This document shows positions 4,794 to 12,052 of a stretch of DNA of 64,000 nt, in pieces. The notes beneath the pieces are model-generated. The model was not told where the DNA came from and made no database searches. It worked only from the letters and a program-made list of their open reading frames with translations. The stretch comes from Gammaproteobacteria bacterium (lineage in GTDB: Bacteria; Pseudomonadota; Gammaproteobacteria; Steroidobacterales; Steroidobacteraceae). Each line of letters opens with the position of its first letter. The first letter of the stretch is position 1. The translations under genes were made by a program, and so were the position numbers. The DNA lies in contig CANGBB010000005.1 in the NCBI GenBank assembly GCA_947452065.1, positions 76,820 through 140,819 on the forward strand, given 5' to 3'.

Positions 4794-6827
4794 TCAGAGC
4801 AGAGGCACCAGCAACAGGGCCACGATGTTGATGATCTTGATCAGCGGATTGATCGCCGGTCCCGCAGTGTCCTTGTAAGGATCGCCAACGGTGTCGCCGG
4901 TGACCGAGGCCTTGTGCGTGTCCGAGCCCTTGCCGCCGAAGTGACCTTCTTCGATGTACTTCTTGGCGTTGTCCCAGGCACCGCCACCGGTGCACATGGA
5001 GATGGCAACGAACAGGCCGGTGACGATGGTGCCGATCAGCAGTCCGCCGAGTGCACGGATGCCGGCGCCCGGGCCCATCAGCGCATTCATGCCGAAGGCG
5101 ATCACCACTGGCACTAGGATGGGCAGGAGCGAGGGCACAACCATTTCCTTGATGGCGGCCTTGGTCAGCAGGTCCACGGCCTTGGAGTAATCCGGCTTCG
5201 CAGTGCCTTCCATGATGCCGGCGATCTCGCGGAACTGGCGACGTACTTCGGTGACCACTGAGCCGGCGGCGCGACCCACGGCCTCCATCGCCATTGCACC
5301 GAACAGATACGGCACCAGGCCGCCGATGAACAGACCGATGATGACGGCCGGATCGGACAGCGAGAAGTCCACGGCCTTGCCGGCCGCTTCGAGGTTGTGC
5401 GTGTAGTCAGCGAACAGCACCAGCGCCGCCAGACCGGCTGAACCGATGGCATAGCCCTTGGTGACGGCCTTGGTGGTGTTGCCCACCGCATCCAGCGGAT
5501 CGGTGATGTCGCGCACCTTCTTGTCGAGGCCGGCCATCTCGGCGATGCCGCCGGCGTTGTCGGTGATCGGGCCGTAGGCATCGAGTGCCACGATCATGCC
5601 GGTCAGCGACAGCATGGCGGTCGCGGCAATCGCGATGCCGTAAAGACCGCCGAGCTGGAACGCGCCGAAGATCGCGAAGCAGACGGCGATCACTGGCAGT
5701 GCGGTGGACTTCATCGACACACCGAGGCCGGCGATGATGTTGGTCGCATGACCTGTCTGGGACGCTGCGGCCACGCCGCGCACCGGAGCGTATTCCGTTG
5801 CGGTGTAGTACTCGGTGATGACGATCAGCGCAGCTGTCAGCGCCAAGCCGATCAGGGTGCAGCCGAACATCGCCGAGAAGTTGCCCGGCATCATCGCCTG
5901 AGTGATGAACCAGAAGCCGATCGCCGAGATCACGCCCGAGACGATCACGCCCTTGTACAGCGCGTTCATGATCTTGCCGCCATCAGCGGCCTTGACGAAG
6001 AACGTGCCGACGATTGAGGCGACGATCGACACGGCGCCAATGATCAGCGGGTAGAGGATGGCGTTGGCACCAGCACCCTTCATCATCAGACCGCCGAGCA
6101 GCATGGTGGCAACCAGCGTTACGGCATAAGTCTCGAACAGGTCGGCAGCCATGCCCGCGCAGTCACCCACATTGTCACCGACGTTGTCGGCGATCACTGC
6201 CGGGTTGCGCGGATCATCTTCCGGAATACCGGCTTCGACCTTGCCCACCAGGTCAGCGCCGACGTCGGCGCCCTTGGTAAAGATGCCGCCGCCGAGACGC
6301 GCGAAGATCGAGATCAGGGAGCCGCCGAAGGCCAGACCCACCAGCGCGTGCAGCGCGCTGTCACCGGCGGCCGTGCCACCCAGTGCCGTGTAGTAGCCGG
6401 CCACGCCCAGCAGGCCGAGTCCCACCACCAGCATGCCGGTGATGGCACCACCCTGAAAGGCTACCTGCAGCGCCGCGTTCAAGCCCTGATTGGCCGCCTG
6501 CGCCGTGCGCACATTGGCGCGCACGGAGATGTTCATGCCGATGAAACCGGTCAGGCCCGAGAGGATCGCGCCGACGGCGAAGCCACCTGCGGTCTGCCAG
6601 CCCAGCGCCACCCACAGCAGCACGAACAGGATCGCGCCCACGATGGCGATGGTGGTGTACTGACGATTCAGGTAGGCCTTGGCACCGGCCTGAATCGCCG
6701 CGGCGATTTCCTGCATTCGCTCATTGCCCGCTGGCAGCCCAAGAATCCGGGCGCGTGCGACCACGCCGTAGAGAACCGCCAACACGCCGGCGCCAATCGC
6801 CAGCCACAGCCAATTCGTGGCATCCAT
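4794..6827 (-). CDS. hppA: Membrane-bound proton-translocating pyrophosphatase
   Basis: 677 aa; [88 protein letters not shown] signatures. Confidence 0.97.
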
Positions 6828-6871
6828 GAACGAACCCCCTGTCTGAATGTTTTATTCGGTTAAACGGACTC

Positions 6872-6896
6872 TCTGGCGCATCGGAGACGCACCAGA
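6872..6896 (-). other. Stem-loop at predicted 5' end of the hppA mRNA
   Basis: Minus-strand RNA UCUGGUGCGU-CUCCG-AUGCGCCAGA; 10 bp with two G-U wobbles. Confidence 0.55.
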
Positions 6897-6905
6897 AACC
6901 GCCCG

Positions 6906-6914
6906 AATATAGCA
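6906..6914 (-). promoter_or_regulatory. Putative extended -10 promoter element for hppA
   Basis: Minus strand reads TGC-TATATT (TGn extended -10), about 80 nt upstream of the hppA ATG; no good -35. Confidence 0.45.
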
Positions 6915-6942
6915 CAGCCGGCGCAGGTGGCCGGGCAGGGGG

Positions 6943-7149
6943 TCAGTAGTGAGGGGGCTTCTCGTAGCCGCCCGCTGCGGCGCCGCCGGCTTCGAGTTCT
7001 TCTATGCGGCTACTCAGCCGCTGAGCGCGCGCCAGTGTCTGATCGAGCAGCTTCTGCTGTCGCGCCACTTCGTCGCTGATCTGCTGCACGGCCTGCTCGA
7101 GATGGGCCAGCTTGGTTTCGATGTGTTCCATTCGCTCGTCGCCGGCCAT
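6943..7149 (-). CDS. slyX: SlyX family protein
   Basis: 68 aa coiled coil ending in ...EKPPHY, matching SlyX C-termini (PPHY). Confidence 0.85.
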   Translation of the reverse strand: MAGDERMEHIETKLAHLEQAVQQISDEVARQQKLLDQTLARAQRLSSRIEELEAGGAAAGGYEKPPHY

Positions 7150-7187
7150 TGCAGTTCTCCATGCCGGCTGAGGCAGCCGGCCCGCAC

Positions 7188-8456
7188 TCAGATCTTGAAT
7201 TCGGTCTTCAGTTTCTTGCGCACCGTCTTGCCACGGATGCGCACGTATTTCGGAATGCCTTTCTCATACGGCGGGTAGTCCTCACCCGCGATCAGCGGTT
7301 CGAGGTAACGCCGACAGGCTGCAGTGATGCCAAAGCCGTCAGCGGTGATGAAATTGCGCGGCACCTTCTTTTCCACATTGGCGACTTCGGCCAAAGGCAC
7401 GGGCACGATCTTCCAGCGATACGGACTGCTCGAGGTGCGACGGATCGCCGGCATGACCGCATGCATGCCGCGCACGGCAAATTCCACTGCGGCTTTGCCC
7501 ACCGCATAAGCCTGTTCGACATCGGTCTTCGAGGCGATATGGCGTGCGGCGCGCTGCAGATAATCGGCCACGGCCCAGTGATATTTGTAGCCCAGACCCT
7601 CGCGCACCATGTTCGCAACCACCGGCCCGACACCGCCTAACTGCGCATGTCCGAACGCATCGAGTGTGCCCGCTTCGGCCAGGAATTTGCCGTCCGGATA
7701 CTTGGCACCTTCCGACACCACGATGACGCAGTAGCCATAGCTTTTGACGCATTCCTGAACGCGGGCGAGGAAACGCGCTTTGTCGAAGGCGATCTCGGGG
7801 AACAGAATGATGTGCGGCGGCTCACCGGCTTTACGGCCCGCGAGGCCACCCGCAGCCGCAATCCAACCCGCATGTCGGCCCATGACTTCAAGTACGAACA
7901 CCTTGGTTGAGGTGCGCGCCATCGATGCCACGTCCATCGCGCCTTCCAGCGTGGAGATGGCGATGTATTTGGCCACCGAGCCAAAGCCCGGGCAGCAATC
8001 GGTGAGCGGCAGATCGTTGTCCACGGTTTTCGGCACGCCGATACAAGTGATCGGATAGCCGAGCTGTTCACCGAGCTGCGAGACCTTCAGTGCGGTGTCC
8101 ATCGAGTCGTTGCCACCGTTGTAGAAAAAGTAGCCGATGTCGTGGGCGCGAAACACTTCGATCAGGCGCTCATATTCGGCGCGGTTCTTGTCCAGGCCTT
8201 TCAGCTTGAAGCGCGCGGAGCCGAAGGCGCCTGCCGGCGTGTGCCGCAGTGCTCGGATGGTGGCCGGGCTCTCGGCGCTGATGTCGATCAGATCCTCGGT
8301 CAGCGCACCGACGATGCCGTCGCGTCCGGCATAGATGTGGCCGATGTGCCGGCGTGCCTTGCGGGCCGCCTCGATCACGCCGCAGGCGGAGGCATTGATC
8401 ACGGCGGTGACGCCGCCGGACTGGGCATAGAAAGCGTTGCGCGGAGCGGTTTTCAT
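7188..8456 (-). CDS. pfp: Pyrophosphate-dependent 6-phosphofructokinase
   Basis: Start MKTAPRNAFYAQSGGVTAVINAS; YNGGNDSMDTA, GVPKTVDNDLPLTDCCPGFGSVAKY, VMGRHAGWIAAAGGLA; PPi-PFK type (Asp after GGN, Lys in PKTVDND). Confidence 0.92.
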   Translation of the reverse strand: MKTAPRNAFYAQSGGVTAVINASACGVIEAARKARRHIGHIYAGRDGIVGALTEDLIDISAESPATIRALRHTPAGAFGSARFKLKGLDKNRAEYERLIEVFRAHDIGYFFYNGGNDSMDTALKVSQLGEQLGYPITCIGVPKTVDNDLPLTDCCPGFGSVAKYIAISTLEGAMDVASMARTSTKVFVLEVMGRHAGWIAAAGGLAGRKAGEPPHIILFPEIAFDKARFLARVQECVKSYGYCVIVVSEGAKYPDGKFLAEAGTLDAFGHAQLGGVGPVVANMVREGLGYKYHWAVADYLQRAARHIASKTDVEQAYAVGKAAVEFAVRGMHAVMPAIRRTSSSPYRWKIVPVPLAEVANVEKKVPRNFITADGFGITAACRRYLEPLIAGEDYPPYEKGIPKYVRIRGKTVRKKLKTEFKI

Positions 8457-8559
8457 GGGCGTCAATCCTTGCTGCAGGCGGGCTTGGAAACATGAAAATG
8501 ATAGCCGAATGGGCGTGTTTGCGTTTGACCCGGGCGATGCAGGCCGGTACCTTTCCGCC

Positions 8560-9477
8560 ATGCGAATCGTGCTGTTGGGCGCTCCAGGGAGCGGCAAGGG
8601 AACTCAGGCTCAACGACTGGTCGAGAGATTCGGCCTGCCGCAGATATCCACGGGCGACCTGCTGCGCTCGGCGGTTGCGCGTGGCACGCCCTATGGTCTG
8701 CAGGCCAAGGCGGCCATGGATGCCGGGCAGCTGGTCTCCGACGCTGTTGTACTGGGCATCATCCGTGACCGTTTGGCTGAATCGGACACGTTGCGCGGCT
8801 ACGTCCTCGATGGCTTCCCGCGCAATCAGGCGCAGGCTCGTGCGCTGGCGGCCATGCTGCGCGAAATCGGCAAGCCGCTCGATGCGGTGGTGCTGATCGA
8901 AGTGCCGTACAAGGAAATCGTCAAGCGCATCGCCGGTCGCCGCAGTTGCCCCAAGTGTGCCGCGGTGTACAACATTCATGATGTGGGCCCGGGCGAGGCA
9001 CTCCGCTGCCGCAACGGCAACGACCATCCTCCGCTGGTTCAGCGACCGGACGACAACGAGGCCACGGTGACCAAGCGCCTCGAGGTCTACGAGAAGTCCA
9101 CCCGTCCGCTGGTGGATCTCTACGCCAAGCAGGGATTGTTGCGACGTATCGATGGCGATGCGCCCACTGATACAGTCACTCAACGGCTGATGGGTGCGCT
9201 GCTTCAGCCCGCGCCGGCTTCCAAAGCCGCATCCCGTAGTGGGCGCAAGACGGGCCGCAAGAGCGCCGCAAAGCGCAAAACAGCTTCGAAGCGTAAGTCC
9301 GCCGCAAAGCCCAAGAGCGCGGCCAAGCGCAAGGGCGCGGCCAAGCGTAAGCCAGCCGCTAAGCGCAAAACGGCTGCGAAGCGTAAACCGGTTGCGAAGC
9401 GCAAGCCGGTGACCCGGGGCAAGCCTGTCGCCAAGCGCAAGAAGGCAGTGGCCAAGCGCAAGACGCGCCGCCGCTAG
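8560..9477 (+). CDS. adk: Adenylate kinase with Lys/Ala-rich C-terminal extension
   Basis: MRIVLLGAPGSGKGTQAQ P-loop, DGFPRN, CPKC LID, QRPDDNEATV; after about residue 218 an ~88-aa basic tail. Confidence 0.95.
   Translation: MRIVLLGAPGSGKGTQAQRLVERFGLPQISTGDLLRSAVARGTPYGLQAKAAMDAGQLVSDAVVLGIIRDRLAESDTLRGYVLDGFPRNQAQARALAAMLREIGKPLDAVVLIEVPYKEIVKRIAGRRSCPKCAAVYNIHDVGPGEALRCRNGNDHPPLVQRPDDNEATVTKRLEVYEKSTRPLVDLYAKQGLLRRIDGDAPTDTVTQRLMGALLQPAPASKAASRSGRKTGRKSAAKRKTASKRKSAAKPKSAAKRKGAAKRKPAAKRKTAAKRKPVAKRKPVTRGKPVAKRKKAVAKRKTRRR
9274..9435 (+). repeat. Nine consecutive 18-bp units encoding hexapeptides of type K[TSGP][AV]A-K-R inside adk
   Basis: Units KTASKR|KSAAKP|KSAAKR|KGAAKR|KPAAKR|KTAAKR|KPVAKR|KPVTRG|KPVAKR by direct reading (register shifted by one codon relative to the DNA unit start). 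Confidence 0.85.
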
Positions 9478-9505
9478 GCCCTGAAGCCGCTGTCAGTCGC
9501 CGCAA

Positions 9506-10609
9506 CTAGAGCGCGGCAGTCAGCGCCGCGCCGATCACTTCTCCGCGCCAGCCACTGAAGGCTCCGCCACTGCGGGCGCCGCCGGCAATGCGTTCCAGTT
9601 CGCGACGTGGGGCCAGCAGTTCCGGCGCAATCTGCAATCGTTCCGCACAGGCTCGTGTCGCCTCGCCCAGTCGGCGGACGCACTCCATGAACTCCGGTCC
9701 CGGGCGTTCGCGACGCGGTAGCGGGGCAGGCGGATCGGGAATCCCGGCGTCGCTGACCAGCTGGAGCAAGGTGGGGCCGCTGTTTCTCAGCATCCCTTCG
9801 GTCAGTTCCGGAATGACGCTCAATTCGCTGGCGTTGCGGGGCACGCGGAGCACGATCTCGCGCAGCGAGATATCCGGCAGTACCCAGCCGCGCGGACGAT
9901 CGCTGGACATGGCGCGTCTTTCGCGCCATTCGCCCAGCGACTGAGCCAGACGTAAACGCGGCTCATCCAGATCGCTCAGGCCTTTGAGCCGGTGCCAGGC
10001 CTCGGCCGGATCGACAGTCAGCGGCTCGGCTGCGGCCGAGAGCGAGTCTTCCTCGAACCAGGCCAGGCGACCAAGTGCCTGCAGCCGCTGCAGCAGCAGC
10101 TCACACAGCGGCAGCAGGTGGCGCACATCGTCCAATGCATAGTCGATCTGCGCGGCGCTCAGCGGTCGGCGTGACCAGTCGGTGCGGGCCTGAGTCTTTT
10201 GGAGCTTGACCTGTAACAGTGCTTCCACCAGCGCGGCATAGCCGACCTGCGGCGGGAAACCGACCAGGGCGGCAGCCAGCTGGGTGTCAAACACATTGGC
10301 GATGACGCCGCAGCTGGGGGCCAGTACTTCCAGATCCTGCCGCGCCGCATGCAGCACCTTGCACACCGACGCGTCGTTCATCAGCTGCCGGAGCGGGGCC
10401 AGAGCGCTCGCATCCAACGTCTGCGCGCTGGCGAGGGCGATGGTGTCCACACAGAATGCGTCGTCCCTGCCCGAGAGCTGCAGCAGGCACAACTGGGCAT
10501 AGTAGGTGCGTTCGCGCAGGAACTCGGTATCAAGGCCGATGGCCGGCTGCGTCGCTAGGGGTTGCAGCCGCGCATGGAGTGCGGCCGCTTCGGTGATGGG
10601 CATGCTCAT
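9506..10609 (-). CDS. rnd: Ribonuclease D
   Basis: 367 aa; IGLDTEFLRERTYYAQLCLLQLS, KVLHAARQDLEVL, YALDDVRHLLPL exonuclease motifs and HRDC-like region. Confidence 0.93.
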   Translation of the reverse strand: MSMPITEAAALHARLQPLATQPAIGLDTEFLRERTYYAQLCLLQLSGRDDAFCVDTIALASAQTLDASALAPLRQLMNDASVCKVLHAARQDLEVLAPSCGVIANVFDTQLAAALVGFPPQVGYAALVEALLQVKLQKTQARTDWSRRPLSAAQIDYALDDVRHLLPLCELLLQRLQALGRLAWFEEDSLSAAAEPLTVDPAEAWHRLKGLSDLDEPRLRLAQSLGEWRERRAMSSDRPRGWVLPDISLREIVLRVPRNASELSVIPELTEGMLRNSGPTLLQLVSDAGIPDPPAPLPRRERPGPEFMECVRRLGEATRACAERLQIAPELLAPRRELERIAGGARSGGAFSGWRGEVIGAALTAAL

Positions 10610-10675
10610 GCCCGAAAATATCTGCTCACGGAACGAAGGCTACCGGCGTTGTGTGTACAATCAAGCGGAATCTGC

Positions 10676-12052
10676 ATGCACGTACATATTCTCGGCATCT
10701 GTGGCACTTTCATGGGCGGCATCGCGGCCATCGCGAGGCAGGCCGGCCATCGCGTGACCGGATCAGACCGCAACGTCTATCCGCCCATGAGCACGCAGCT
10801 CGAGGCGCTGGGCATTGAACTGATCGAGGGTTACGACCCATCCCAGCTCTCGCCGCGACCCGACGAGGTGGTGGTCGGCAATGTCATGAGTCGCGGCATG
10901 CCGGTCATCGAGGCCTTGCTGGAGTCCGGCATTCCTTACACCTCCGGCCCCGAGTGGCTGGCGCGCAATGTGCTTCGCGAGCGCTGGGTGCTGGCTGTGG
11001 CCGGCACTCACGGCAAGACCACCACCACCAGCATGCTGGCCTGGATTCTGGAGGATGCAGGGCTCTCGCCCGGCTTCTTGATCGGCGGCGTGCCCGTCGA
11101 TTTTCCGGTCAGTGCCCGGCTCGGTGAGCAGCCGTTCTTCGTGATCGAGGCCGACGAGTACGACACCTCCTTCTTCGACAAGCGGGCGAAGTTCGTGCAT
11201 TACCGACCGCGCACCGCGATCCTCAATAATCTCGAATTCGACCACGCCGACATCTATCCGGACCTTCCGGCCATTGAGCGCCAGTTTCATCATCTGGTGC
11301 GCACGGTTCCAGCTGGCGGCCGACTCATCGTGAACGCAAGCGATGAAAATCTGCAGCGCGTACTGCAATTGGGCTGCTGGAGCGGACGCGAAGGGTTCGC
11401 TGCAAGCGGCGCCGGCGGTGCACTGTGGAGCGCGCAGCTACCGGCGGGCGGCGATGGTTCTACATTCACCGTGCTCGAGGCGGGTGTGGCGCGTGGCGAA
11501 GTGCGCTGGGCGATGCTTGGCGCGCACAACGTCGACAATGCGCTCGCGGCTATTGCCGCTGCCCGTCATGCCGGTGTGCCCGTCGAGCGCTCAATCGAAG
11601 CACTCAGCCGTTTCGGTGGTGTCCGACGCCGCATGGAACTGCGCGGTACCGTCCGCGGCATCAGTGTTTATGACGATTTCGCTCATCATCCAACGGCCAT
11701 CGCCACCACACTCGATGGGCTGCGCCGACGTGTTGGCGCGCAGCGCATCATCGCGGTGCTGGAGCCACGTTCGAACACCATGCGCATGGGCGTGCATGCC
11801 GATGCGCTCGGCCAGTCTTTGACCGGCGCGGATGAGGCGTGGATTTACGCGCCGGCGGATCTCGGTTGGGATGCGCCGGCCGCCGTGAAGCAACTAGGCG
11901 CGCGTGCCCATGTGGCCACGTCGCTGGATGCGCTGCTGCAGGGCCTACTCAGCACGCTGCGCGGCGGCGAGCATGTGCTGATCATGAGCAATGGCGGTTT
12001 CGGTGGCCTGCATGCGCGGCTACTGGAGTCGCTGCGGGCTGCAACCTCCTGA
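10676..12052 (+). CDS. mpl: UDP-N-acetylmuramate:L-alanyl-gamma-D-glutamyl-meso-diaminopimelate ligase
   Basis: [58 protein letters not shown]; Mpl-type start. Confidence 0.93.
   Translation: MHVHILGICGTFMGGIAAIARQAGHRVTGSDRNVYPPMSTQLEALGIELIEGYDPSQLSPRPDEVVVGNVMSRGMPVIEALLESGIPYTSGPEWLARNVLRERWVLAVAGTHGKTTTTSMLAWILEDAGLSPGFLIGGVPVDFPVSARLGEQPFFVIEADEYDTSFFDKRAKFVHYRPRTAILNNLEFDHADIYPDLPAIERQFHHLVRTVPAGGRLIVNASDENLQRVLQLGCWSGREGFAASGAGGALWSAQLPAGGDGSTFTVLEAGVARGEVRWAMLGAHNVDNALAAIAAARHAGVPVERSIEALSRFGGVRRRMELRGTVRGISVYDDFAHHPTAIATTLDGLRRRVGAQRIIAVLEPRSNTMRMGVHADALGQSLTGADEAWIYAPADLGWDAPAAVKQLGARAHVATSLDALLQGLLSTLRGGEHVLIMSNGGFGGLHARLLESLRAATS

Follow-up and report, generated by a model that had tools for sequence, protein, structure and literature searches.

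Lysine-rich low-complexity regions in prokaryotes go with DNA-binding proteins (PMC6821194). AlgP of Pseudomonas aeruginosa and the phasin PhaF carry disordered K/A/P repeats that have been likened to histone H1, and KPAA tail peptides of AlgP bind DNA, but AlgP is a dedicated protein of DNA and polyphosphate (polyP) granules and not a metabolic enzyme (PMC9239181). Lysine-repeat tails also reinforce the non-specific binding of DNA by Streptomyces TopA, mycobacterial HupB and Ku (work cited in PMC6821194; PMC5676037), and work cited in PMC6821194 reports that metabolic proteins are depleted in low-complexity regions in eukaryotes. Adenylate kinase (Adk) is usually regarded as a freely diffusing housekeeping enzyme. 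Here we describe an adk gene whose product ends in C-terminal basic repeats as TopA, HupB and Ku do, although the cores of those three proteins bind DNA on their own and the Adk core does not.

The gene lies in a window of 64,000 nucleotides, the whole stretch of DNA that was analysed (Table 1). Its N-terminal part matched Pfam ADK (E=3.8e-52), and the protein gave full-length NCBIfam matches above the cut-offs of PRK00279.1-2 (255.1 bits against 251) and TIGR01351 (234.8 against 168). The product is thus a bacterial adenylate kinase by family membership, and catalysis is predicted. The core contains the P-loop GAPGSGKGT and a LID of the zinc type that has three of the usual cysteines, and the P-loop residues together with R36, R88, R123 and D84 are invariant in the P-loop and catalytic Arg/Asp columns of both A1 and A2. 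In the LID (8935-9051), Cys fills three of the four positions that usually bind zinc (CPKC...C-R-N-G); the fourth is neither Cys nor Asp and is variable in relatives too. The core resembles ordinary long-LID bacterial Adks (PDB 5g3y, 1zin), of which 5g3y is the nearest solved structure and spans query residues 1-214. Those enzymes are untailed, and all solved matches stop near query residue 214. AlphaFold gave a pLDDT mostly above 90 for the core and about 50 for the tail, which is predicted to be disordered past about residue 230. No second Adk paralogue was found in the source genome (2.17 Mb, 96% complete), and a simple scan of 8440-9620 found no promoter or terminator.

Table 1. Coordinates of adk, its parts and its flanking genes in the window
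Feature	Position	Strand	Basis or content
PPi-dependent phosphofructokinase-like gene, divergent from adk	7188..8456	-	ORF, synteny; named from sequence
adk ORF	8560..9477	+	305-residue product: Adk core, then in-frame K/R/A/P/S/T tail
Adenylate kinase core, residues 1-214	8560..9201	+	Pfam, NCBIfam, solved structures, AlphaFold
C-terminal basic tail, residues 215-305 (91 residues)	9202..9474	+	41 K/R, 0 D/E
Nine in-register 18-bp units, K-x-[AV]-A-K-R-like hexapeptides	9274..9435	+	Tandem Repeats Finder and between-unit pN/pS
adk stop codon TAG	9475..9477	+	ORF
RNase D-like gene, convergent with adk	9506..10609	-	ORF, synteny; named from sequence

The original prediction, made from the sequence alone, was that the reading frame continues past the normal Adk end as a tail of almost pure K/R/A/P/S/T, and the ORF confirms this through to its TAG stop. 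Tandem Repeats Finder detected an 18-bp period at 9256-9383 and 9289-9441. The proposed register of nine units held, but the hexapeptide K-x-[AV]-A-K-R given for all of them is exact in only six and the others vary. Likeness to proteins of the Hc1, AlgP and H1 type had also been proposed, and the tail agrees with it in composition, in lacking acidic residues and in its low pLDDT; as modelled, it belongs to the H1-like type (AlgP/Hc1) of long, predicted disordered, K/A/P-rich, acid-free repeats.

The further claim that the tail is a selected peptide and not a slippage product was borne out when the repeat units were compared with one another in the real frame: pS was 0.72 and pN 0.22 (pN/pS ~0.3). 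Between-unit identity of the nine units was 0.73, 0.78 and 0.45 at the three codon positions, lowest at the third, and stops fall inside the units in both other frames. Synonymous sites are saturated and the peptide is conserved. K and R account for 41 of 85 tail residues, against a mean of 24 and a maximum of 37 in 2000 dinucleotide shuffles. In the source genome, open frames averaged only 1.2 K per 60 codons, and a net charge of +25 with at least 15 K was reached by only three of 73,468 stop-free 60-codon stretches. In a composition scan of all ten contigs (~2.17 Mb, minus 500 bases of C1), the Adk tail was the top-ranked basic 60-residue stretch of the proteome. Ten pairs of related species gave tail pN/pS values of 0.06-0.98, which are approximate because low-complexity tails align imprecisely; the value was below 0.6 in eight of the ten, exceeded that of the core in nine, and was highest (0.98) in L050/L052. 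Most differences between repeat units, and between the tails of closely related species, are synonymous, so purifying selection acts on the composition while the sequence itself drifts. Length drifts as well, and composition stays.

In the Adk-core tree, the family group of the window includes Steroidobacter gossypii and further records under the name Steroidobacteraceae, which places the source genome in or near that family. Occurrence of the tail among close relatives is patchy: in the nearest sequenced one (80% core identity) it is 75 aa long, seven congeners have just 2-13 residues after the core, and four further close relatives extend 56-98 residues. A tail confined to this assembly would have pointed to a frameshift or misassembly; that origin is refuted by the tailed nearest relative and by dozens of independent genomes that have tails. 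Among 109 distinct Adk cores, mostly from Gammaproteobacteria and biased to the Adks most like the query, 43 carry an extension of at least 52 residues, K/R-rich in every case. Extension lengths are bimodal (0-21 residues, a single intermediate of 34, then 52-317), and the longest tailed Adks are proteins of 486 and 530 residues. The last 60 residues of the 43 long extensions have a median of 47% K+R, 0% D/E and 22% A. In L089 (3001-4197), KKAKKK repeats give way to GEEKGQEESSQ in the distal tail, as if by a frameshift inside the repeat, real or from assembly.

On the Adk-core tree, tail state has to change 13 times, against about 34 under label shuffling, and at least six of the 13 are forced by well-supported branches; these counts do not separate gain from loss. 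The tail has therefore been repeatedly gained or lost. Within a single genus, L009, L010, L013 and L014 are tailed whereas L004-L008, L011 and L012 are untailed. Because about 60% of the sampled Adks are untailed, including these close congeners, the tail is dispensable.

A K/A-rich, H1-like C-terminal tail on Adk is also a feature of PRK13808 (NF010381, 335 positions), so tailed Adk is already a named database family. The window protein is not a member: it scored 197.9 bits against a cut-off of 426, with its best stretch at residues 1-127. PRK13808 differs in being an alphaproteobacterial Adk type of short-LID length, with a tail unrelated to that of the window. Of 199 genomes drawn evenly from the phylum, five exceeded the cut-off, all from one genus outside the class, which we take to be Bradyrhizobium-like and alphaproteobacterial. 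All five have a K/A tail on a short Adk with a common AAKKVTKKRAKR end or a near equivalent, and tailed Adk has a separate origin in that genus. Searches of the literature outside subscription journals found neither a description of such an Adk tail nor a function for it. A known enzyme and a known type of tail are thus joined in a combination that is recurrent and unexplained.

The composition scan also found K/A/R-rich extensions on TopA, RpoD, DksA, an H-NS-like and an HU-like protein, ObgE, RsfS, a SET-domain protein, Lon and SucD; the names SucD, ObgE and RsfS were confirmed by NCBIfam and the others were read from sequence. The extension is N-terminal in RpoD and DksA and internal in Lon. 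The RpoD-like sigma factor (C7:62472-64883) and the DksA-like protein (C1:387805-388599) have long K/A/P-rich N-terminal extensions, and ObgE (C2:240448-241656) and the ribosome silencing factor RsfS (C2:38695-39327) have basic C-terminal ones. SucD, the succinate-CoA ligase alpha subunit (C5:155603-156727; L263), ends in an 87-residue K/A/R-rich tail. Nearly every family genome whose sucD gene is complete has this tail; outside the family it was absent even from genomes with a tailed Adk, so it is not an obligate companion of the Adk tail there. The SET-domain protein (C2:83690-84232) has a K-rich C-terminus; it was matched in 33 of 37 family genomes and in almost none from other families of the order, and it may act as a methyltransferase on K-rich tails. 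A search of the source genome with an HMM of the Adk tail gave two weak matches, in a TamB-like ORF and in an LptG-like/transporter ORF region with in-frame stops, which overlap other genes and were judged to be chance.

The order H+-pyrophosphatase, PPi-dependent PFK, adk, RNase D, mpl (hppA-pfp-adk-rnd-mpl) is conserved at 4794-12052, and by these gene names adk appears to sit in a pyrophosphate-energy neighbourhood. In the examined flanks pfp was found at 34 of 45 tailed and 47 of 70 untailed loci. Since the order is the same with and without a tail, the neighbourhood is not tail-specific, and a link between the two was rejected.

The Adk tail is real, conserved in composition, recurrently gained or lost and predicted to be disordered, and its composition is common to extensions on nucleic-acid-associated proteins of the same cell. 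The reading that we favour, and to which we give about an even chance, is that the tail is a functional one, an intrinsically disordered polycation joined to an otherwise ordinary Adk, and that it holds the enzyme on nucleic acid by non-specific electrostatics. It would give Adk a second, sequence-independent affinity for polyanions. Composition alone does not separate DNA from RNA, polyP or acidic lipid; nucleic acid is the most likely partner because of the composition of the tail together with the company it keeps in this genome, and the candidates would be nucleoid DNA, ribosomal and messenger RNA, or both. A soluble Adk would thereby be kept loosely at sites where AMP is produced and ATP used, such as tRNA charging, NAD-dependent DNA ligation, RNA turnover and transcription, and local Adk may speed the equilibration of ATP and AMP with two ADP. 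We infer binding, localisation and metabolic benefit in this sense.

Alternatively, the tail might be tolerated and not useful, arising by stop loss at the adk end and slippage in GC-rich genomes and purged only where harmful. Its patchy occurrence, its length range of 52-325 aa with fast indel turnover, the relaxed pN/pS of some pairs such as L050/L052 and the comparable extensions on several other proteins of the genome would all fit. This is nevertheless unlikely, given that all long Adk extensions are basic and none of mixed composition, that lysine is so scarce in open frames of this genome, that the peptide is conserved between synonymously saturated units, and that a tailed Adk has a separate origin in Alphaproteobacteria. 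It is less likely still that the tail directs Adk to polyP as the AlgP tail does, coupling it to polyP:AMP phosphotransfer, or that, like PhaF, it is directed to PHA granules. E. coli Adk works with Ppk in polyP:AMP phosphotransfer, and both PPK1 and PPK2 are present in the source genome. Spacing of polyP granules requires the KPAA tail of AlgP, and the puncta that AlgP forms are dependent on polyP kinases (PMC9239181). However, PPK1 occurs in almost all relatives whether Adk is tailed or untailed, and tails are not confined to genomes with a polyP kinase: neither PPK1 nor PPK2 was matched in G017 (99% complete, 148-aa Adk tail) or G035 (96%, 113-aa tail), which weakens polyP as a general target, barring another synthase. 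Of the tethering targets first suggested, nucleic acid stays plausible, fitting the other tailed proteins of the genome, and polyP does not stand as a general one. PHA granules are unlikely here because PhaC_N had no match in the source genome. NDK is present, ruling out a role for Adk in place of a missing NDK.

We consider it more improbable again that the tail works on Adk itself or on protein partners, through solubility, oligomerisation, binding of acidic proteins or regulatory modification of lysines, for example by a SET-domain methyltransferase. Two ATP-handling enzymes, SucD and Adk, are tailed in the family, and the SET-domain protein, itself K-tailed here, is nearly universal in family genomes and almost absent elsewhere. 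Yet outside the family Adk is tailed without SucD being so, some tailed genomes there, such as G040 and G044, lack SET, and beyond composition the tails share no conserved motif.

Returning to the nucleic-acid tether, a tail that is often gained or lost, is always basic, and provides natural pairs of tailed and untailed Adks within one genus makes nucleic-acid localisation of adenine-nucleotide balancing directly testable. The parallel tail of SucD suggests that tails of the nucleic-acid type mark a broader class of metabolic enzymes that has been overlooked. A broader proposal, which we put forward as doubtful, is that H1-like tails have been repeatedly added to ATP-handling enzymes, to Adk in many Gammaproteobacteria and independently in Alphaproteobacteria, and to succinyl-CoA synthetase throughout Steroidobacteraceae; together they might form a nucleoid- or ribosome-bound layer of energy supply, possibly regulated in Steroidobacteraceae by a SET-domain enzyme that methylates lysines.
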